DNA from: an uncultured Armatimonadota bacterium | GTDB lineage: Bacteria > Armatimonadota > Armatimonadia > Armatimonadales > Armatimonadaceae | DNA length: 64,000 bases | Assembly (NCBI GenBank): GCA_903910385.1 | Contig: CAIVZM010000019.1 | Location: 62,001 to 126,000, forward strand | Direction: 5' to 3' | Shown: piece after piece, positions 8,838 to 53,516 of the stretch | Numbering within the stretch: position 1 is the stretch's first letter | How the letters are laid out: the number at the start of each line of letters is the position of its first letter | Notes under the pieces: model-generated | Told to the model about the DNA's origin: nothing | The model's input: the letters and a program-made list of their open reading frames with translations, nothing else | Database searches by the model: none | Position numbers and translations under genes: made by a program

Positions 8838-11800
8838 TTATTTGTTCAGCGCCTCATCGAGGTTCATCATCTGATTTGTCAGCATTGTCCATGCCGCCAG
8901 CTGGGTGGTAGGGACGGTGGCATCGGGCTTGGATTCACCGACCGTGACCAGTAATTTTGCATCCTCCGGGCGGCGAACATAGTAGCCTGCAATATCCGCA
9001 AGGGATGATTCCAGAATCTGCGCTTCTTGCGGTTTCAGCGGGCGGGCGAGAATCTTTTTGGAAAGATAATCGAATCGCGCTTCCATGGTCGGGGCGGCTT
9101 TGACCGCTTTCTGCGCAAGGTTACGCGCCGCTTCGACGAATTGCTCATCATTCATGGTCACGAGAGCCTGAAGCGGCGTGTTGGTTCGTTCCCGACGCAT
9201 GGTGCAGACTTCGCGGGCTGGGGCATTGAAGATGTCCATGCTGGCGGGTGGCGCGGCGCGTTTCCAGAACGTATACATACTGCGCCGATAAAGGCTTTCG
9301 CCTGTGTCGCGCTTGTAGTCGCGCGTATTGCTACCGATCATGGCGACCGCTTCCCAGACGCCATCTGGTTGGTAGGGCTTGACGCTCGGACCGCCGATTT
9401 TGGGACTGAGGGTTCCGCTGGCGGCGAGGGCGTAATCACGCACCATCTCGGCATCCATGCGGAATCGCGGACCTCGTGAAAGCAATCGGTTCGCCGGGTC
9501 TTTACGTCGCTTTTCGGGCGTGACGATGGCAGACTGCCGATAGGTCGCGCTGGTAACCATCATCTTGAAGAAGTTTTTGGTATCCCAACCCTTTTCACGG
9601 TACTCCACCGCCATCCAATCGAGAAGCTCTGGATGGCTTGGCGCTTCGCCCATGATGCCGAAGTCTCCGGCAGTCTTGACGATGCCGACGCCAAACAACT
9701 CCTGCCAGTAGCGATTGACCGTGACACGAGCCGTCAGCGGATGCGTTGGCAACAGGAGCCAGCGGGCGAAACCGAGACGGTTCTTCGGATAATTCGCCGG
9801 GAATGCTGGAAGAGCGGTGGGTGTGATCGGCTTAACGGCATCCCGTCGCTTATCGTATTCGCCCCGGAACAGGACATATGCCATCGCCTCCTCGCCCCGT
9901 TCGTTGGCGATATGAGCGATGGTTCCGCGTTGCTGGATTGCGGCGATTTCGCCTTCCAGCTTCGCGACGGTTGCAGTGAGCATCGGATACTGCAAATCGG
10001 CATTGTTCAGATAGTACGCCATCAAATCGGCGCGTTCCGTGTCTGACAGGGGTTTGTTGGACTGAACCGAGGCAAGAAGAGCGGAAATTCGGGCGGTAGC
10101 CGTTCCCTGCGCCAGTTTTCGAGCATCATCGGCGGTCAGAGCGCGACGGAACAGGCGCACATCCTGAATCGCTGTCCCTTCCATCGCAGATGTCGTATTG
10201 CGCTGGGCAAGCGCGAAAGGAACATTGGTTCTGGTAGACCCTTTGAGGCTTTCCGCCTGTGGATCGGTCGCCTTATCGACCCCATCGATATAGATTTTGA
10301 TGGATTCCTTCTTCATGCCGCCATCATAGGTCATGACGACATGGTGCCATTTTCCGGGGGTCAGCATATCGCGTGTGACGACCTTGAGGGCGTCTTCCGG
10401 CCATTTGTGGATAAAGTGGGTGGCAACCCGGTTTCCTTCGATCCAGAGATCCCATCCCCGGAAATCATTCGCTTCATCCATGCGAGCGAAGATCGCGCCG
10501 CCGCCATTATTGGGGGCGAGTTTTACCCAGACTGCAGCGGAAAAGGGTTCGTTATTTTCCCGGTCGCCGATTTCTGGGAATTTGGCGCTGATACCGGTCT
10601 TCTTCTGGAACGCTTTCGCAGCGGCTATTCCTTCCGTCCAATCGTTATCGGCGCTGAGCGAAGCCTTTACCGTTTGCGCTCCGGTTTTCGTGTTCAATTC
10701 CGCAGTGAGGGCGCGTCCCTGACCTTCGTTGAGGGCGATAAATGCCGTCATGCCTTCTGTAGGAATAGCAGGAGCGAAGGAACTGCGGTCGATGGTCTTC
10801 GACCATTTATCGAAGTCGGGGGCAGCGGCGACTTTTCGCGCCTCCTGCGCCTTTTTCGCCAGCGCTATTTCGCCTTTATCGCCATTGAGGGCCGCAAACC
10901 GGTTGCGATCTTCTGGCATCGGAACCGGGACGACCGGCGGCGTATCCTTGATGTTACCGTCCATCGCTCTTTGCGTTGTATTGTTGAAGAACGCCGCTAA
11001 CTGGTAGAACTCTTTCTGCGAGATAGGGTCGAATTTATGGTCATGGCAGACGGCGCATCCGGTCGTCGCTCCCATAAATACCTGAGACGCCGTTTCCGTC
11101 CTGTCACGGGTATAGAGCACGTTGTACTCTTCATCAATCGCCCCGCCTTCATTGGTGGTGATATTACACCGGGTGAATCCTGTTGCGACCTTCTGATCCA
11201 GAGTAGGGCTAGGTAGCAAGTCGCCTGCCAATTGTTCCACCGTAAACTGGTCGAACGGCATATTTTTGTTGTATGCGTTAATCACCCAGTCCCGGTACGC
11301 CCACATTTCGCGGTAGTTATCGAAATGGATGCCGTTCGAGTCAGCATAACGGGCGCCGTCCAGCCAGTAGCGACTACGATGCTCGCCCCAACGGGGGGAC
11401 GCCATCATTTTATCGACATACTTTTCGTAGTAGTCCGGCGATTTGTCCGCGACGAATTTCTCCACATCCGCCGGGTCGGGCGGCAATCCTGTCAAATCGA
11501 GACTGAGACGCCGCGCCAGAGTACGGCGGTCGGCTTCCGGCGCAGGGGTAAGCCCATTGGCTTCCAGTTTCGACAGGGTGAATCGGTCAATCGGGTTACG
11601 TACCCAGGCGGCATTCTTAACGGCGGGCAGGGCGGAGCGTTTCGGGGCGATATATGACCAGTGACTTTCGTATTTCGCTCCCTGTTCGATCCAGCGAAGC
11701 ACCGTCTTCTTCTGCGCATCGGTCAACGCTTTGTGACCGCTGGAGGGCGGCATTCGTAAAGCGTCGTTATCGGGCTTGAGAATACGGGCGACCAGTTCGC

Positions 11801-12095
11801 TGGATATGGGATCGCCGGGAACGATGGTGCGTTTGCCACTCTCCCGAAGGGCGATGGCATCGCCATACTTATCGATTCGCAGTCCCGCTTTTCGTGATGC
11901 GGAATCCGGACCATGACAGGGAAAGCAATTTTCCGCCAGAATCGGACGTATGTCACGATTGTATGTGGGGGTCAGTGGGACAGGCTCTTCCTTTTTTGCA
12001 GGCGGCGCCGCCTGAGACACTACGGCGAGAGCGAGCAGGGAAAGCCCTACTGACCAGCCAAAACCAACAAACTTCTTTGAATGAGTGCGTAACAT
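8838..12095 (-). CDS. PSCyt1/DUF1549-LamG-DUF1553 secreted c-type cytochrome-like protein
   Basis: About 1,085 residues. A signal peptide ends near VSQA-APP. Next come a haem-binding motif CFPCH in ILAENCFPCHGPD (PSCyt1), a DUF1549 region (PVDRF-like PIDRFTLSKLEANGL, GLPPDPADVEKFV), a second haem-like motif CAVCHDHKFDP, a LamG/concanavalin-like insert (WHHVVMTYDG, IYIDGV) and a C-terminal DUF1553 (HPLTARVTVNRYWQELFG, HPELLDWMAVEY, RTNTPLQALVTMND). A longer reading from 12260 is open, but ATG 12095 has the signal peptide immediately after it and a TATAAC box 6 nt before it. It likely works outside the cytoplasm with the DUF1501 partner. Confidence 0.9.
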   Translation of the reverse strand: MLRTHSKKFVGFGWSVGLSLLALAVVSQAAPPAKKEEPVPLTPTYNRDIRPILAENCFPCHGPDSASRKAGLRIDKYGDAIALRESGKRTIVPGDPISSELVARILKPDNDALRMPPSSGHKALTDAQKKTVLRWIEQGAKYESHWSYIAPKRSALPAVKNAAWVRNPIDRFTLSKLEANGLTPAPEADRRTLARRLSLDLTGLPPDPADVEKFVADKSPDYYEKYVDKMMASPRWGEHRSRYWLDGARYADSNGIHFDNYREMWAYRDWVINAYNKNMPFDQFTVEQLAGDLLPSPTLDQKVATGFTRCNITTNEGGAIDEEYNVLYTRDRTETASQVFMGATTGCAVCHDHKFDPISQKEFYQLAAFFNNTTQRAMDGNIKDTPPVVPVPMPEDRNRFAALNGDKGEIALAKKAQEARKVAAAPDFDKWSKTIDRSSFAPAIPTEGMTAFIALNEGQGRALTAELNTKTGAQTVKASLSADNDWTEGIAAAKAFQKKTGISAKFPEIGDRENNEPFSAAVWVKLAPNNGGGAIFARMDEANDFRGWDLWIEGNRVATHFIHKWPEDALKVVTRDMLTPGKWHHVVMTYDGGMKKESIKIYIDGVDKATDPQAESLKGSTRTNVPFALAQRNTTSAMEGTAIQDVRLFRRALTADDARKLAQGTATARISALLASVQSNKPLSDTERADLMAYYLNNADLQYPMLTATVAKLEGEIAAIQQRGTIAHIANERGEEAMAYVLFRGEYDKRRDAVKPITPTALPAFPANYPKNRLGFARWLLLPTHPLTARVTVNRYWQELFGVGIVKTAGDFGIMGEAPSHPELLDWMAVEYREKGWDTKNFFKMMVTSATYRQSAIVTPEKRRKDPANRLLSRGPRFRMDAEMVRDYALAASGTLSPKIGGPSVKPYQPDGVWEAVAMIGSNTRDYKRDTGESLYRRSMYTFWKRAAPPASMDIFNAPAREVCTMRRERTNTPLQALVTMNDEQFVEAARNLAQKAVKAAPTMEARFDYLSKKILARPLKPQEAQILESSLADIAGYYVRRPEDAKLLVTVGESKPDATVPTTQLAAWTMLTNQMMNLDEALNK

Positions 12096-12101
12096 GATTA
12101 A

Positions 12102-12107
12102 GTTATA
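12102..12107 (-). promoter_or_regulatory. -10 box placed for a leaderless DUF1553 mRNA
   Basis: TATAAC on the minus strand, 6 nt (TTAATC), then ATG at 12095. There is no Shine-Dalgarno sequence. Confidence 0.55.
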
Positions 12108-12236
12108 ATACATCAGTTTTTCAAGGATATACCTCCGAGTTTGGTGAATTTTGTCCGAATTCGACAAAATGTCGTCTCTTTTTTTACAGTAGCCCACAAA
12201 ACGATTCAAGGCGCCAGAAAAGGGGTAAAATACGAT

Positions 12237-13925
12237 ATGCTCCGAATTTCCCCATCGCATTGTTGCGTTTTTTCGTTTTTACTTGCTATTATACTTGGTG
12301 GCGTTCCCGTATTCGCTCAAAAACCTACTTCCAGTAAGGGGAATGTTTCCGCAACTTTCCCTTCTCAACGGATGTCCCGAAGATGGCTTTTTATCTGGAC
12401 GAACGTGGGCGATCCTGCGGAGGTCGATAAAGTCATCGAGCGTCTGCCACGCGCCCGTGCGACGGGTTATAACGCTATAGTCCTGTCCCCAAATATTGCG
12501 CCGTCCAAAGTCGCCGCCCTGCGTGATGCTACGCAAAAGAACGGTATGGGAATTGTCGCTACCGTTATGGGTGGTTCGAATGACCGGAATTATATGGAAG
12601 GCGTCCCGGTGCGCGACGCTCCCTTCGTAGCGAAAAACGGTATCGCCACCTATCAGAAAGAGAACGCTCTCCGCATCAATAATGCGGACTTTGAAGAATC
12701 TGAGGGCAATCACTTCAAGGGATGGGGCTTTCAGGACGATGAAGGCGTCACGACCTTTGCTGATCGGGAGGTTTTCCATGGCGGAAAAACCTCGCTTCGC
12801 ATGGAAAATATCGGTAAGAACCCGGTGCGTCATTGTCGCATTTCTCAACCCATTGTTTTAACGCCGTTCCGGCAGTACCATGCCTCTGTCTGGATCAAAA
12901 GCGAAAAACTGACACCTTCAGACCCGGAAGTGAAAATCCTCACGGCGGATGCCGCACGTTCGATCAGCTTTCAAACCTTTACCGTGGAAGCGACCAGCGA
13001 TTGGAAGCGTTACGATATTGTTTTCAACAGCCTGAACAATACAAAGGCGAACTTGTATTTGGGTTCCTGGTATGGGAAAGACGGTAAAATCTGGTGGGAC
13101 GATCTCAAAATTGAGGAAATCGGTCTGGTGAATGTCCTCCGTCGTCCGGGTTGTCCGGTCCGGGTGCAAAACGATAGCGGAGCCGTTTTCGAGGAAGGTC
13201 GAGATTACGCCCCGATCTCCGACCCGCAGTTACATCCCTGGATCGCCTACCACGAAGAACCGATCATTCGTTTAACTTCGAATACGCGCATCAAGGACGG
13301 CGAACGTTTGCGTGTCAGCTACTACCACCCGATTATTGTGTATACCGACCGCATCACCAGTTGTTTGAGCGAACCGAAAATCTTCGATGATTGGCGGATG
13401 GAGGTCAAGAGGGCAAATGAAACGTTGCATCCCGCCGCCTTTCTGATGTCGCACGATGAACTCCGGGTGATGAACTGGTGTGAGGCGTGTCAGAGTAAGA
13501 AGATGACCCCCGGCGAACTTCTCGCCTGGAACGTGCGCAAGGCGGCGCAGATTATTCGGGATATTCGCCCGGATGCCGGAATCTGGGTCTGGAACGATAT
13601 GTTCGACCCGCAACACAATGCCGTCGACAACTTTTACGGCGTCAATGGCTCGCTTACCGGGTCGTGGAAGGGCTTGGATAAGGACGTTGGCATTGTCAAC
13701 TGGCACGGGGGACTTCTGGGGAAAAACTGCCGTTTCTTCGCGGATATGGGCCTAAAACAAATCCTTTCCGGTTACTATGACAGCGACGAAGACGGCTCAA
13801 GCATTACGCAATGGCTGGCGAATACCAGAGATATTCCCGGTATTGTCGGCGCGATGTACACGACCTGGGAAAGCAAGTATGACGCGATGGAACCCTGGGC
13901 GGCGAAAGCCTGGGGCAAGAAGTAA
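12237..13925 (+). CDS. Secreted glycosidase-like protein with carbohydrate-binding domain
   Basis: About 562 residues from ATG 12237. The signal peptide (hydrophobic FSFLLAIILGGV, cleavage near VFA-Q) is clear. A barrel-like N-terminal part (RWLFIWTNVGDPAEVDKVI) is interrupted by a CBM4/9-like segment: NADFEESEGNHFKGWGF, then GGKTSLRMENIG and WWDDLKIEE. The barrel resumes with MSHDELRVMNWC and DAGIWVWNDMFDPQHN. The layout suggests a polysaccharide-active enzyme, but I cannot name a family. A TAAAAT box ends 5 nt before the ATG; GGGG further up is a poor ribosome site. Divergent from the DUF1553 gene. Confidence 0.7.
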   Translation: MLRISPSHCCVFSFLLAIILGGVPVFAQKPTSSKGNVSATFPSQRMSRRWLFIWTNVGDPAEVDKVIERLPRARATGYNAIVLSPNIAPSKVAALRDATQKNGMGIVATVMGGSNDRNYMEGVPVRDAPFVAKNGIATYQKENALRINNADFEESEGNHFKGWGFQDDEGVTTFADREVFHGGKTSLRMENIGKNPVRHCRISQPIVLTPFRQYHASVWIKSEKLTPSDPEVKILTADAARSISFQTFTVEATSDWKRYDIVFNSLNNTKANLYLGSWYGKDGKIWWDDLKIEEIGLVNVLRRPGCPVRVQNDSGAVFEEGRDYAPISDPQLHPWIAYHEEPIIRLTSNTRIKDGERLRVSYYHPIIVYTDRITSCLSEPKIFDDWRMEVKRANETLHPAAFLMSHDELRVMNWCEACQSKKMTPGELLAWNVRKAAQIIRDIRPDAGIWVWNDMFDPQHNAVDNFYGVNGSLTGSWKGLDKDVGIVNWHGGLLGKNCRFFADMGLKQILSGYYDSDEDGSSITQWLANTRDIPGIVGAMYTTWESKYDAMEPWAAKAWGKK

Positions 13926-39472: not shown

Positions 39473-42058
39473 ATGGGTCATAGTGTTAGAATACCGTTCC
39501 TCAAAATGCGCATGAACCGAATAACCTTCTCACAACTGTGGCGCGTCGGCGTCGCATCTTCTCTGGGATTGCTGGCGGTTTCCGCCGCCGTTCCCGTTTT
39601 GTCCGGACCGCCCGCGAAAAACCCGAACGCGGACAACAACGCCTTCTATGAAACGAAGGTAAGACCGATCCTGACCGCCCGGTGTCTGACCTGTCATACC
39701 GGGGCGGGCGGAAGCGGCGGACTGGACCTGACCGACCGTGCGGCGATTCTCAAAGGCGGAGAGTCCGGCGCGGCGGTAAACCTCTCCAAAAACGCTGATA
39801 GTCTGATTCTGCGTTTCATCAATTACCATGAATCACGCAAGATGCCGCCGCAGGGCAAAATCCCGCAACCCGAAATCGATGTCCTGACAAAGTGGGTTGC
39901 CATGGGCTTGCCTATGACTGCCAAGAAGGTATCGTCCGCCGGGAGCGCGACAGGAAGTTTTCATGGCCCGCCAAAGGTGAATGCGGAGACGAAGAATTTC
40001 TGGGCGTTTCGACCCGTCAAGCGTCCCGCCGTTCCTGCGGTGAAAAATATGGCGTGGGTACGCAACCCGATGGACGCCTTTGTGCTGGCGAAGTTAGAGA
40101 AAAACAACCTGATGCCTGCGCCGCCGCTCGGTAAAGCCGCATGGCTCCGTCGGGTGACGTACGATCTGATTGGATTACCGCCGACCCCGGAGGAAACGAA
40201 AGCGTTTCTGGTGGATACTGCGCCCAACGCTTATGAAAAAGTCGTCGATCGTTTACTGGCATCGCCGCACTACGGGGAAAAATGGGGACGGCACTGGCTT
40301 GACCTCGTGCGCTACGCCGAGACCAACAGTTTCGAACGCGATGGCGCAAAACCGTTCGCCTATCGGTATCGCGATTATGTCATCAAGTCCCTCAACGACG
40401 ACAAACCGTACGATGTCTTCATCAAAGAGCAACTGGCGGGCGATGAACTTGACAAAGTGACCCCGGAAACGTTGACCGCGACAGGATATTATCGTCTGGG
40501 GCAGTGGGACGATGAACCTGCCGATCCTGAACAGGCGCGTTACGATGAACTGGATGACATTGTGGCAACAACAGGTCAGACGATGCTCGGTCTGACCGTC
40601 AACTGCGCCCGCTGTCATGACCACAAACTTGATCCAATTCCGCAAAAAGATTACTACCGCATGCTGGCATTCTTCCAAAATGTGCGTCGTTATCAGCAGG
40701 GTGGATGGGAACGTAACGATGTCACCGCTCTACGCGTCATCGCTACGGAAGAGGAGCGGAAAAGTTTTTCGGGCGCCGAAGTAGCCTGGAAAGCGAAATT
40801 AGACCCGTTCAACAAGGCGATTACTACCGTGGAGAAAAAGGTCTCTGCGACGTTCGTGCCGGTGGAAGTGGAAGAATTCCGGGATGAGGCAAAGCGCCCG
40901 GAGATTATCAAGAAGCGGATTCCAACTCTGATCACAGAAGCGGAATATACAGAGTATCTCAAGAATGTCGAGGCGCGAAATGCGCTTCGTGATAACCCTC
41001 CGCCCGGACTCACCCGCGCTCTGGGCGTCGTGGAGGGGGATATCTCCGCTCCGGCGACTCATGTCCTCTTGCGAGGAAATCCGCACGTTCCGGGGCAAGA
41101 AGTGACGCCGGGCTTCCTCTCTGTCCTTTCACCGCCAGACCCCGAAATATCTCCCAACGCCGATGGCTCTTCGTCCGGGCGCCGCCGTGCGCTGGCGGAA
41201 TGGATTGCAAGCCCGAAAAATCCTCTGACCGCCCGTGTCATGGCGAACCGACTGTTTCAGCATCATTTTGGTCGTGGCATCGTGCGCTCCACATCGAACT
41301 TTGGTCGTCTGGGCGATACTCCGACGCATCCGGAACTGCTGGATTTTCTCGCGACCGAACTGGTTAAAAACAACTGGCGACTCAAGCCGATGCACCGGAT
41401 GATGACGCTGTCCACCGCTTACCGTATGTCCTCGCAAGGGAATAAGACGGCTCTGGCGAAAGACCCGGAAAACAATCTCCTCTGGCGAGTAGATATGCGT
41501 CGCCTGACCGCAGAGGAAGTCCGCGATTCCATTCTGGCGGTCAATGGGACATTGAACCGTACCCTGTACGGTCCCTCGGTGTACCCGCGTATCCCGAAGG
41601 AAGTGCTGGCGGGGCAGAGCGTGCCCGGTTCCGGATGGGATGTCAACTCCGGCCCGGAACAGCAAACGCGTCGGAGCATTTACACGCATATCAAGCGCAG
41701 TCTTGCGCTTCCCATACTGGCAAGTTTCGATGCCGCTGACACAGATTTCACCTGTCCCGTTCGCTTCGCCACCACCCAACCGACGCAGGCTCTCAGCATG
41801 CTCAATAGCCCGTTCCTGGGTCAACAGGCGGCGGATTTTGCGGCTCTGTTGCAAAAACAGGCGGGAGACGACCCGAAAGCGCAAGTCCTGCTGGGACTCT
41901 GGCGTGCGCTACAACGGCCCCCAACCGAAAAAGAAATCGCACGTGGTATGGCTTTTTTCCGCGATATGACACAGGAATCCAACATCAGTCAGAAGGAAGC
42001 GCTTCGCCGCTACTGTCTGGTATTGCTAAATTTGAATGAGTTTATGTACCTGGATTAA
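39473..42058 (+). CDS. PSCyt1/DUF1549-DUF1553 secreted c-type cytochrome-like protein, second copy
   Basis: 861 residues. A signal segment (VGVASSLGLLAVSAAVPVLS) precedes the haem motif CLTCH (ARCLTCHTGAGG). DUF1549 follows (PMDAFVLAKLEKNNL, GLPPTPEETKAFL, HYGEKWGRHWLDLVRYAET), then CARCHDHKLDPIPQKDYY and DUF1553 (NPLTARVMANRLFQHHFG, HPELLDFLATELVK, TQPTQALSMLNS). Unlike the 8838-12095 protein, it lacks the LamG insert. ATGs at 39506 and 39512 are alternative starts. It is followed by its DUF1501 partner 9 nt later. Confidence 0.9.
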   Translation: MGHSVRIPFLKMRMNRITFSQLWRVGVASSLGLLAVSAAVPVLSGPPAKNPNADNNAFYETKVRPILTARCLTCHTGAGGSGGLDLTDRAAILKGGESGAAVNLSKNADSLILRFINYHESRKMPPQGKIPQPEIDVLTKWVAMGLPMTAKKVSSAGSATGSFHGPPKVNAETKNFWAFRPVKRPAVPAVKNMAWVRNPMDAFVLAKLEKNNLMPAPPLGKAAWLRRVTYDLIGLPPTPEETKAFLVDTAPNAYEKVVDRLLASPHYGEKWGRHWLDLVRYAETNSFERDGAKPFAYRYRDYVIKSLNDDKPYDVFIKEQLAGDELDKVTPETLTATGYYRLGQWDDEPADPEQARYDELDDIVATTGQTMLGLTVNCARCHDHKLDPIPQKDYYRMLAFFQNVRRYQQGGWERNDVTALRVIATEEERKSFSGAEVAWKAKLDPFNKAITTVEKKVSATFVPVEVEEFRDEAKRPEIIKKRIPTLITEAEYTEYLKNVEARNALRDNPPPGLTRALGVVEGDISAPATHVLLRGNPHVPGQEVTPGFLSVLSPPDPEISPNADGSSSGRRRALAEWIASPKNPLTARVMANRLFQHHFGRGIVRSTSNFGRLGDTPTHPELLDFLATELVKNNWRLKPMHRMMTLSTAYRMSSQGNKTALAKDPENNLLWRVDMRRLTAEEVRDSILAVNGTLNRTLYGPSVYPRIPKEVLAGQSVPGSGWDVNSGPEQQTRRSIYTHIKRSLALPILASFDAADTDFTCPVRFATTQPTQALSMLNSPFLGQQAADFAALLQKQAGDDPKAQVLLGLWRALQRPPTEKEIARGMAFFRDMTQESNISQKEALRRYCLVLLNLNEFMYLD

Positions 42059-42067
42059 AGGGACAAT

Positions 42068-43531
42068 ATGATGGATAAAGAGTTTTGCGGACGAACCCGG
42101 CGGCAGTTCCTGTGGGAAATGGGAGCGGGCTTTGTCGGAACCGCGATGGCGGGAATGTTCGAGGATTCGTTCTTTGCGAAGCAGTCTCTTGCGGCGGACG
42201 GTGTAACGCCTTATGCGCCGCCGAAGCTCGGCAAAGGCGGCAAGGCCCCGATGATCCCGGCGAAGGCGAAAAGTGTCATCTTCCTGTATATGTACGGCGG
42301 GCCATCACAGATCGATACATTCGATTATAAGCCCGGGATGAAGGGCATGGACGGCAAGACGATCAACGTTAAGACGTTCGGGCGCGGCGGACACAAGAAT
42401 CAGGGACGGATTGTCGAACCCAAATTCGAATTCAAGCAATATGGGCAGTGCGGTAAGTGGGTATCGTCCCTCTTCCCGAATCTGGCGACCTGTGTGGACG
42501 ATATCGCGTTCCTTCATTCGATGACCGCCGATTCGCCTATCCATGGTTCCGCCATGCTGCAGATGAACTCTGGTAAGATTCTGAGCGGCAGTCCGTGTAT
42601 CGGATCGTGGGTAAACTATGGTCTGGGCAGTGTCAACGAAAACCTGCCGGGCTTTGTCGTCATGCTCGACCCAAGAGGGGGGCCGATTTCCGGACCGAAA
42701 AACTGGTCTAGCGGTTATATGCCCGCCACCTATCAGGCAACCGTTGTTAGCGCTACCGATACCCCGATTCTGGATTTACGTCGCCCGGATGAACTGCGGG
42801 ATGTCGATCAGCGAAAGATTCTGGACACGCTCAAAGCGTACAATTCGGAGCATGAGCGACCCCGTAGCGACAACTCCAACCTTGCCGCCCGAATTGAGTC
42901 TTACGAACTGGCATATCGGATGCAGGCAGCGGCTCCGGAAGCGACCGATCTGCATAGCGAACCAGAACACATCCGCGAACTCTATGGCTTGAATGACAAA
43001 CGCACCGAAGTCTTCGGACGTCAATGTTTGATGGCACGTCGTATGGTGGAGCGTGGGGTTCGCTTCATTCAGATATACTCGGGTGGAGCGCATGTCGATT
43101 CGACCTGGGATGCGCATAATGACCTGGTAGAAAACCACTCCTTGCACGCAGGGGAGACGGACAAACCTATCGCCGGACTGATCAAAGACCTGAAACAACG
43201 CGGTCTGCTGGATGAAACCCTGATTGTCTGGGGCGGAGAATTCGGGCGTCAACCGACTGCCGAGTACGCTGTTGGTACAGGGCGGGATCATAATGCGTAC
43301 GGCTTCACCATGTGGATGGCGGGCGGCGGTGTCAAAGGTGGCGTCAGTGTCGGTCAGACCGACGAATTAGGAAGCAAAGCTGTAGAAGATCCTCTGAAGG
43401 TCAAGCACCTTCACGCCACGATACTGCATCAGATGGGACTCGATCAGAACCGACTGACATATTTCTACGGAGGATTGAATCAAAAACTGGTCGGAGTCGA
43501 AGGCGCTGAACCGATCAAACAGATTATTTGA
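42068..43531 (+). CDS. DUF1501 secreted protein, second copy, Tat-like signal
   Basis: 487 residues. TRRQFLWEMGAGFVGTAMAG is a twin-arginine signal. Body motifs match the first copy: FLYMYGGPSQIDTFDYKPG, CIGSWVNYGLGS, MARRMVERGVRFIQIYSG, WGGEFGRQP, GRDHNAYGFTMWMAGGG and HLHATILHQMG. It forms an operon with the DUF1553 gene 9 nt upstream. Function inferred only as the exported partner of that protein. Confidence 0.9.
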   Translation: MMDKEFCGRTRRQFLWEMGAGFVGTAMAGMFEDSFFAKQSLAADGVTPYAPPKLGKGGKAPMIPAKAKSVIFLYMYGGPSQIDTFDYKPGMKGMDGKTINVKTFGRGGHKNQGRIVEPKFEFKQYGQCGKWVSSLFPNLATCVDDIAFLHSMTADSPIHGSAMLQMNSGKILSGSPCIGSWVNYGLGSVNENLPGFVVMLDPRGGPISGPKNWSSGYMPATYQATVVSATDTPILDLRRPDELRDVDQRKILDTLKAYNSEHERPRSDNSNLAARIESYELAYRMQAAAPEATDLHSEPEHIRELYGLNDKRTEVFGRQCLMARRMVERGVRFIQIYSGGAHVDSTWDAHNDLVENHSLHAGETDKPIAGLIKDLKQRGLLDETLIVWGGEFGRQPTAEYAVGTGRDHNAYGFTMWMAGGGVKGGVSVGQTDELGSKAVEDPLKVKHLHATILHQMGLDQNRLTYFYGGLNQKLVGVEGAEPIKQII

Positions 43532-51688: not shown

Positions 51689-51696
51689 ATCATAAT

Positions 51697-51723
51697 GACG
51701 CCGGGGTCTGGCGTCGCTTTTTT
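51697..51723 (+). terminator. recX terminator
   Basis: gacgcc (51697-51702), 7-nt loop, ggcgtc (51710-51715), then gctttttt. Its 3' end ggcgtcgctttttt resembles the ends of the two leader terminators at 3751 and 4427. Confidence 0.85.
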
Positions 51724-51788
51724 AACGTTTCCCTCTTATATTTGTTCTTTTCTTCTGTTATATTATTATATTATCCTCGGAGGAACGA

Positions 51789-53516
51789 ATGCCCGATTAT
51801 CCGTCGCCTCGGATGACGCTTTGTCTGGCGATTGACCTGAAAAAATCAACCGCCGCAGGTTTAAAGCTTTCCACAAAACTGTTAGACCGATTCAATCTTG
51901 CTCTCGTTCGTCAGGTGACACCGCACTTGACAGCCGTCGGATTGACGAAAGCGGTCATCAAATTCACCGGAGACGGGTGGCTCATTATCACCGATAATAC
52001 CGATGATGCCGCGCCGATTTGTTGTCTGGCGATCATCATGGCATGCCGGTTTCAGGAAGAAATCAGCGAAGAAACGGGTCTGCCTCTGGATGGAGTTCCT
52101 GCGCTTCGTCTCTCTGTCTGCTGGGGGCGTGCGCTTCCGGTGGAATTGCCCAATGGACAACGGGACTTTGTTGGAGATAGCGTCCGTCACGCCGTTCGCG
52201 CCTGCCAGTTATGCGATGATAACGAGATTTTGATCGACGATACGGTGTTGCGCTGGATCGATCATGATTTCGTCTGTACTCCGCTTATGTTCGATGAGCG
52301 ATTGGCTCGCCATCCGGAAGCGAAAATGGAGCAACCGCTGGCTCTGCATACCCTCGAAGAACTCAAACTGGAGTCCGCCGCAGAAGGGGATGCCCCCGAA
52401 TACTTTGTCAATACCCTGACCATAATCGGACGACGATTAGAAGCGGAAGCATTGGCTTATCGGGTATCGGACGCCTTGCAGAACGAAGCGGAAAAATCGT
52501 CTGCTGATATCGAAGAATTGACCGAGCGGTACAATCGCCTCTTCGCCAGTAATCTGGACTATGAAACGGTCAGCCGCATTCTGCGCGATATGCGCGATTC
52601 CGGACTGCAACCGGATGTCGAAACCTACAATTCCCTTATCGTCAAAGCGCGGGATTCCGAAACGCGCTCTCGCTGGCTGATGCGAATGAAGCAGGAGGGG
52701 ATTTCTCCCGATGTCAAAACGTTTACTATCCTGATTCGTCACGCAGAGGATGAACCCGCCGTGCAACGCTGGCTAGCGCGAATGCGTCGCGCCGGTGTCG
52801 CGCCGGATGTTATTTTGCTGAACGCTCTGATCGACCAGGCGAAAACGTATCCTGTCGCTCTGCAATACTTGCGCCGATTACAGGAAATGGGGGTGACGCC
52901 GAACGCTAGCTCCTATGACCTTTTGATCGAGAAGTCTGATGATGTGGCATCCGGTCGTATCTGGATCGAAGCGATGTTCGGGGAAGGGATACGCCCGAGC
53001 GTGGTGACCTTCCGCTCACTTTTTCGGAAAGATCTGTCGACTATCTCCGCAGAGGAACTACTGTCGTGGTTTCTTGAACTGCCCTACCACCCTTCTGAGG
53101 CGATGTGGCAGGCTATCGCCGAGTACCGCCGACGCGGTCGTATCGACGATGCCCTACGGCTTTGTCTCGATTATCCGAACACTCAGGCGGCGCAAAAAAT
53201 CTTTCGCGCTTACCCCGAGCAGGCGTTGACCTACTTCCGTCACGTCGATGAGGCGATCGCGAACCATCCCAACGCCGCCTACGCTATCGGAATGGCGCTT
53301 CAGACTCTGGGGCGAGCTGACGAGGCTCTGCCGTATCTTTACCGCGCTTATGAACTTGCCTTCTCCGGTCCTCGCCGCGAGGAACTGAGCCGTTTTCTTA
53401 CTCAAGCCGCTACCGGTCGCGCCCTGACGGAAAAAGAACATTCTCCAATCTCTCCGAAGCGCCTTATCGTACAAAGATCGGGCGAACCGGATGAAAGCGC
53501 CATCATCAAGAATTAG
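51789..53516 (+). CDS. Class III cyclase-like domain fused to PPR-like repeats
   Basis: 575 residues, no signal peptide. Residues 10-170 resemble a class III nucleotidyl cyclase: LAIDLKKS (Asp16) and KFTGDGWLI (Asp62) match the two metal Asp, and FVGDSVRHAVRACQL matches the helix that carries the catalytic Asn/Arg, though the Asn is not conserved. From 257 on, an array has Pro at 275, 307, 339, 371, 403 and 435, exactly 32 apart. Units read GLQPDVETYNSLI, GISPDVKTFTILI, GVAPDVILLNALI, GVTPNASSYDLLI, GIRPSVVTFRSLF, the pattern of PPR repeats (usually 35). A TPR-like NAAYAIGMALQTLGRADEAL follows. GGAGG stands before the ATG. Possibly RNA- or protein-binding signalling; function unknown. Confidence 0.8.
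   Translation: MPDYPSPRMTLCLAIDLKKSTAAGLKLSTKLLDRFNLALVRQVTPHLTAVGLTKAVIKFTGDGWLIITDNTDDAAPICCLAIIMACRFQEEISEETGLPLDGVPALRLSVCWGRALPVELPNGQRDFVGDSVRHAVRACQLCDDNEILIDDTVLRWIDHDFVCTPLMFDERLARHPEAKMEQPLALHTLEELKLESAAEGDAPEYFVNTLTIIGRRLEAEALAYRVSDALQNEAEKSSADIEELTERYNRLFASNLDYETVSRILRDMRDSGLQPDVETYNSLIVKARDSETRSRWLMRMKQEGISPDVKTFTILIRHAEDEPAVQRWLARMRRAGVAPDVILLNALIDQAKTYPVALQYLRRLQEMGVTPNASSYDLLIEKSDDVASGRIWIEAMFGEGIRPSVVTFRSLFRKDLSTISAEELLSWFLELPYHPSEAMWQAIAEYRRRGRIDDALRLCLDYPNTQAAQKIFRAYPEQALTYFRHVDEAIANHPNAAYAIGMALQTLGRADEALPYLYRAYELAFSGPRREELSRFLTQAATGRALTEKEHSPISPKRLIVQRSGEPDESAIIKN

Follow-up and report, generated by a model that had tools for sequence, protein, structure and literature searches.

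To our knowledge, sequence-specific RNA recognition by PPR proteins is regarded as essentially a trait of eukaryotic organelles, and these proteins are generally thought to be absent from archaea. P-type PPR proteins, such as maize PPR10 and the designer dPPR and cPPR proteins, are built of 35-residue units, one helix pair each. The structures of dPPR proteins show base reading by residues 5 and 35 (ND for U, NS for C, SN for A, TD for G, NN for C or U); Val2 clamps the base, and Lys13, located close to the phosphates where helix a ends, also contributes (PMC4837458). The plant S and SS motifs are shorter, at 31 residues, and SS motifs also occur in tandem arrays (PMC7303307). One paper describes PPRs as mainly eukaryotic and absent from bacteria (PMC4029402); bacterial PPR proteins have nevertheless been reported in Ralstonia, Rhodobacter and Legionella longbeachae (PMC2824747), and they share with the protein described below, by description only, the presence of a PPR array in a bacterium.

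We analysed a stretch of 64,000 nucleotides from an uncultured Armatimonadota bacterium (the window), which encodes a protein that we call CHD-PPR32. With P-type proteins it shares one helix pair per unit, a hydrophobic residue 2, N5, D or N at the last position, the predicted RNA code and a Lys at the phosphate-contact position. It differs in having units of 32 residues, with three fewer at the end of helix A, in being fused to a cyclase-homology domain (CHD) and in being prokaryotic. No publication describing this architecture was found in the open-access literature searched: the family is real and, as far as that literature shows, undescribed.

Results

The gene and its genomic context

The open reading frame singled out by the sequence-only reading is a real gene, with GGAGG ahead of its ATG and full-length relatives at 40-54% identity (Table 1). 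In the window it lies between recX and rny, directly upstream of the latter. In three genomes of the same family, recX, rny and ymdB follow one another without it, so we regard it as an insertion; it was also absent from all 11 same-family genomes searched. The neighbours of its relatives are unrelated from locus to locus, and at none of the loci inspected does a conserved neighbour gene point to a pathway. On the strength of this synteny, these unrelated neighbours and this absence, it is a patchily distributed, probably acquired single gene that stands outside any RNase Y operon.

Its place next to rny would suit a part in an RNase Y operon, where the protein would target RNase Y to transcripts. 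We reject membership of such an operon because of the recX-rny synteny without the gene, and with the unrelated neighbours elsewhere this role is very improbable. Elsewhere in the window, positions 8838-12260 and 39473-43531 look by eye like genes for planctomycete-type c-type cytochrome/DUF1553 and DUF1501 proteins.

Table 1 Features of the CHD-PPR32 locus (positions in the window)
Feature	Position	Strand	Basis
Intrinsic-terminator-like hairpin and T run after recX, between recX and the CHD-PPR32 gene	51696..51724	+	
Shine-Dalgarno sequence GGAGG, 5 nt before ATG	51779..51783	+	Read from sequence
CDS, 575 aa, CHD-PPR32-TPR protein	51789..53516	+	Full-length relatives
Class III cyclase-homology domain, residues 8-192	51810..52364	+	Foldseek, strand/helix order, weak sequence matches
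Asp16, metal ligand 1, invariant	51834..51836	+	Relatives' alignment
Lys58, adenine-contacting Lys position, invariant	51960..51962	+	Alignment; role as in class III cyclases
Asp62 of TGDGW, metal ligand 2, invariant	51972..51974	+	Relatives' alignment
Asp126, second adenine-contact position, invariant	52164..52166	+	Relatives' alignment
Arg133 replacing the catalytic Asn, invariant	52185..52187	+	Relatives' alignment, RhoGC column alignment
Arg137, transition-state Arg position, invariant	52197..52199	+	Relatives' alignment
Helical linker, residues 193-244	52365..52520	+	AlphaFold helices
PPR unit 1, code N5-D32 (U)	52521..52616	+	PSSM parse
PPR unit 2, code N-D (U)	52617..52712	+	Pfam, PSSM parse
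PPR unit 3, code T-D (G)	52713..52808	+	PSSM parse
PPR unit 4, code N-N (C/U)	52809..52904	+	PSSM parse
PPR unit 5, code D-S, no clear reading	52905..53000	+	PSSM parse
PPR unit 6, degenerate, code R-S; conserved LF.KDLS cap motif	53001..53096	+	PSSM parse, relatives' alignment
Conserved TPR-like alpha-solenoid cap, residues 437-548	53097..53432	+	TPR matches mostly below cut-off, helices, conservation

A PPR array of 32-residue units

The sequence-only reading had listed prolines at residues 275, 307, 339, 371, 403 and 435, all of which are present; the pattern D-V-x-T-Y/F-N-x-L-I, said to follow each of them, is exact after Pro275 only and degenerate after the other five. The exact 32-residue spacing it proposed is borne out by lag-32 self-similarity and a PSSM parse, which agree. 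Compared with themselves at lag 32, residues 245-436 score 1.21 per position (BLOSUM62). In 2000 shuffles the highest score over 50 lags was never above -0.04, and since none reached the observed value, chance is excluded. The parse places six units at residues 245, 277, 309, 341, 373 and 405, all 32 apart. The array thus begins one unit earlier than had been implied, the first unit having been missed.

Profile searches identify the array as PPR-like, in line with the initial proposal: Pfam PPR_3 (9.7e-19) and PPR_2 (8e-18) match the window protein far above their cut-offs, PPR_1 and TIGR00756 are also above theirs, and PPR_2/PPR_3 exceed the cut-off in relatives too. TPR and SEL1 models do not claim the array; TPR matches are restricted to the C-terminal cap (residues ~476-538), where they fall below cut-off in the window protein, and this cap is conserved across full-length relatives. 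The best PDB matches are designer PPRs (dPPR-U10, 4e-43; cPPR-Telo1, 5e-43). The assignment of the window array to true PPR repeats is supported.

The AlphaFold model of the full-length window protein (pLDDT 87) has tandem antiparallel helix pairs in a solenoid, one pair per 32 residues, as the sequence-only reading would have it. We also modelled the array of an eight-unit relative, L021 (pLDDT 94), whose Foldseek matches are almost only PPR proteins. It superposes on cPPR-NRE at 2.3 A over 168 columns and on 4ozs at 2.6 A, a close local fit, despite a large rmsd over the longest alignments. A changed superhelical pitch might account for this combination.

Every parsed unit is exactly 32 residues long, off the canonical 35 but within the accepted PPR range of 31-36; the PDB PPRs aligned here have units of 35 or 31. 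In these alignments a gap of three residues follows TYNSLI immediately in nearly every unit, which places the loss where helix A ends. The plant S/SS motifs are likewise short PPR units. In S units, however, the A-B turn is intact and the residues are missing from the unit end (...DEMPERD), whereas PPR32 units have a shortened A-B turn and keep the ...EGIxPD end; S/SS-type shortening after helix B was not seen in the alignments. The proposal of a new short PPR-like class survives in part: the 32-residue period recurs in every relative found, but short length alone is not new, because 31-residue plant S and SS motifs are known (PMC7303307). The novelty lies in where the unit is shortened (the end of helix A, not the unit end), in shortened units making up whole prokaryotic arrays and in the fusion to a CHD.

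Variation within arrays is focused on the base-reading positions

Residues 5, 35, 2 and Lys13 of dPPR map to positions 5, 32, 2 and 10 of the 32-residue units, the Lys13 equivalent being position 10 because three residues are lost before it. Among 54 units, N, S or T at position 5 and D or N at the last position predominate, with 18 ND, 18 NN, 5 SN and 2 TD pairs; position 10 is Lys or Arg in 41.

At the DNA level the repeats of several arrays are nearly identical: most adjacent pairs agree at 90-99%, and two at 78% and 84%. As a mean of seven genomes, 35% of the variation within arrays falls on positions 5 and 32; this pair ranks first among 496, and does so in every leave-one-out run; position 2 comes third. 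The pairs used at positions 5/32 in near-identical arrays are NN, ND and SN, read as C/U, U and A in dPPR (PMC4837458). At one locus (L042) the codons for position 5, TCA and AAC, are three base changes apart, between repeats that are 95% identical elsewhere. In L021, L022 and L024, three of the seven arrays, little or none of the variation falls on code positions; the sample is small. By analogy only, the pattern resembles TAL effector repeats, which are also near-identical in DNA and vary mainly at two base-reading residues, but which have an unrelated fold and a DNA target.

This focus is the chief argument for active base reading. RNA reading by the 32-residue arrays is likely; the behaviour of the code positions supports RNA binding better than did the grounds offered at first. 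In the window protein the predicted site would be short and of low specificity, since only four of its six units have readable codes.

The PPR scaffold could instead have been kept for protein binding. The protein would then be a TPR/SEL1-like interaction scaffold whose resemblance to the RNA code is inherited and unused, as the TPR-like cap, the non-code residues of window units 5 and 6 and the frequent binding of protein by alpha-solenoids might suggest. We find this quite unlikely in view of the PPR profile matches, the concentration of variation on two base-reading positions and the Lys/Arg kept at the phosphate-contact position.

Relatives in bacteria and an archaeon

A scan of a contig collection (genome_contigs) gave no match with a single-sequence query and 12 loci with a two-row alignment query, labelled as Armatimonadota, Dehalococcoidia and other Chloroflexota, Brocadiaceae, Bacteroidota, Acetothermia, Argoarchaeum and Methanophagales. 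A profile search of 291 Armatimonadota genomes (E 1e-8) found relatives in 11; in ten of them the repeats are short, and in one (G247) they are ordinary PPRs. Because the scans pre-filter by pattern, both counts are lower bounds.

Relatives of full length come from Armatimonadota, Chloroflexota and one contig of archaeal origin (Argoarchaeum); those from Planctomycetota, Bacteroidota, Acetothermia and Methanophagales are partial or broken. The Armatimonadota copies and L020, L021 and L022 are intact over their full length. Contig ends truncate L024, L025 and L028; L026 and L027 are broken, and a Chloroflexi copy has an in-frame stop inside the PPR array (L023:2623-2625) with the frame continuing on both sides. 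The homologues keep the period: PSSM spacing is 32 wherever at least two units parse as an array, a single spacing of 38 in L031 coming from a weak false match upstream of the array. The arrays have between four (Argoarchaeum) and eight (L021) units. The intact four-unit copy of Ca. Argoarchaeum (L022:5944-7422, + strand) lies on a 219 kb contig, and its neighbours match the archaeal models Arch_GlmM, Arch_glmU and B12_SAM_Ta0216, so the locus is not a simple binning error.

The mainly eukaryotic distribution of PPRs (PMC4029402) might raise the suspicion that the gene was recently acquired from a eukaryote or stems from eukaryotic contamination. Such an origin is hardly credible for a gene with a Shine-Dalgarno sequence and bacterial neighbours, whose CHD-PPR32-cap architecture is shared by several prokaryotic phyla at 40-54% identity and whose unit length differs from the 35 or 31 residues of the aligned PDB PPRs.

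No CHD-PPR32 relatives were found in the viral contigs, phages or plasmids searched. A hypothetical protein of a Rahnella aquatilis plasmid (CP036489.1:38425-38868) matched by its repeats only, at ten PPR-like places; its 148 codons for 136 matched residues suggest ordinary PPR length.

Other arrays came to light in Armatimonadota. In genome G278, contig ends carry parts of near-identical repeat arrays, L042:1483-2208 (-) and L031:2-1156 (-), which are probably one array split by assembly. L039, on contig C203 of G247, is an open frame of 1499 residues in which ordinary PPR units of ~35 residues are numerous, with no CHD in the part read. A second architecture with short PPRs is L073:2824-5742 (+) on contig C223 of G185: a 972-residue STAND/AAA_16-like protein with a C-terminal array of ~32-residue units (PPR_2, 3.8e-23); the N-terminal part of the protein looks by eye like a regulator DNA-binding domain.

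The cyclase-homology domain

The cyclase-like character proposed for the N-terminal domain is supported by its predicted structure, a class III cyclase fold: Foldseek against the PDB matches 5oyh, 7yz9 and 3uvj at TMt 0.7-0.8 over ~200 columns, the matches including RhoGC, Rv1625c, AC and sGC domains, and the strand and helix order of the AlphaFold model is consistent with this assignment. Sequence matches to cyclases and PycC are weak. Pfam Guanylate_cyc, one of the profiles named for checking the domain, does not recognise it; the PADLOC PycC profile matches the CHD of four of nine members, at best with 3.5e-5, and the base-selecting residues of PycC (PMC11224242) have no match in the CHD. 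The CHD tree is poorly resolved, with strong support only for a seven-row Armatimonadota clade that includes the window protein.

Asp16 and Asp62, first picked out from the window sequence, are present and, together with K58, G61, D126, G129, R133 and R137, invariant across relatives in bacteria and an archaeon. By comparison with adenylyl cyclase, we take D16/D62 to be metal ligands, K58/D126 adenine contacts and R137 the transition-state Arg. The loss of the catalytic Asn was also seen correctly: its place in the column alignment to RhoGC is taken by Arg133. The strict conservation argues for a working nucleotide site, and the change from Asn to Arg against ordinary catalysis; cyclase activity is doubtful because this transition-state residue is invariantly Arg. 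For the same reason the domain is more likely to be a nucleotide sensor, or an enzyme with weak or altered activity on nucleotides, than a standard cyclase.

The domain could nonetheless be an active RNA-gated cyclase, in which a target RNA switches on cyclic nucleotide synthesis, making the protein a sensor of foreign or regulatory RNA with a logic like that of Pycsar or CBASS. The CHD shares with class III cyclases, PycC included, the fold, the metal Asp pair, the Lys/Asp adenine positions and the transition-state Arg, all these residues being invariant from bacteria to the archaeon; the weak PycC matches, the patchy spread, the insertion between recX and rny and the STAND-NTPase-like protein with similar short PPRs would fit as well. 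We nevertheless judge an active cyclase unlikely, given the invariant Arg133, the unmatched PycC base-selecting residues and the lack of matches in phages, plasmids and viral contigs; by inspection, no adjacent effector gene was recognised at any locus. Membership of Pycsar itself we reject, the PycC profile match being weak and no adjacent cyclic-pyrimidine effector gene being seen.

Discussion

We propose that CHD-PPR32 is a modular receptor for single-stranded RNA with a nucleotide-binding, perhaps inactive CHD, a reading that we consider fairly probable. The 32-residue units would stack into a right-handed solenoid, each reading one base through residue 5 and the last residue, as in plant PPRs. 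Helix A would be shorter by about one turn, removed at its end, with the basic phosphate contact (Lys/Arg10) kept. For the window array the predicted target is roughly 5'-U-U-G-(C/U), with two further positions left unread. The CHD would probably dimerise and bind a metal-nucleotide, ATP-like to judge by the conserved Lys and Asp, and would be altered by RNA binding. RNA binding, domain coupling and nucleotide chemistry are what we infer from the domains, repeat length, conservation and code-position variation described above; a signalling role is plausible.

More broadly, prokaryotic 32-residue PPR arrays might be RNA-sequence-sensing receptors, diversified by repeat homogenisation and changes of code residues, with the CHD making or sensing a nucleotide signal on matching RNA. 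We put this forward tentatively, as a rather doubtful generalisation.

The family has been kept in several bacterial phyla as well as an archaeon, has a unit length of its own and concentrates its variation on the base-reading residues, which suggests that prokaryotes, too, use the PPR code. PPR32 could serve as a compact scaffold for designed RNA binders, at 96 bp per base read, and CHD-PPR32 is a candidate for RNA-gated nucleotide signalling. Altogether, it appears that the RNA-binding code of plant organelles has a prokaryotic counterpart with shorter repeats, perhaps coupled to signalling.
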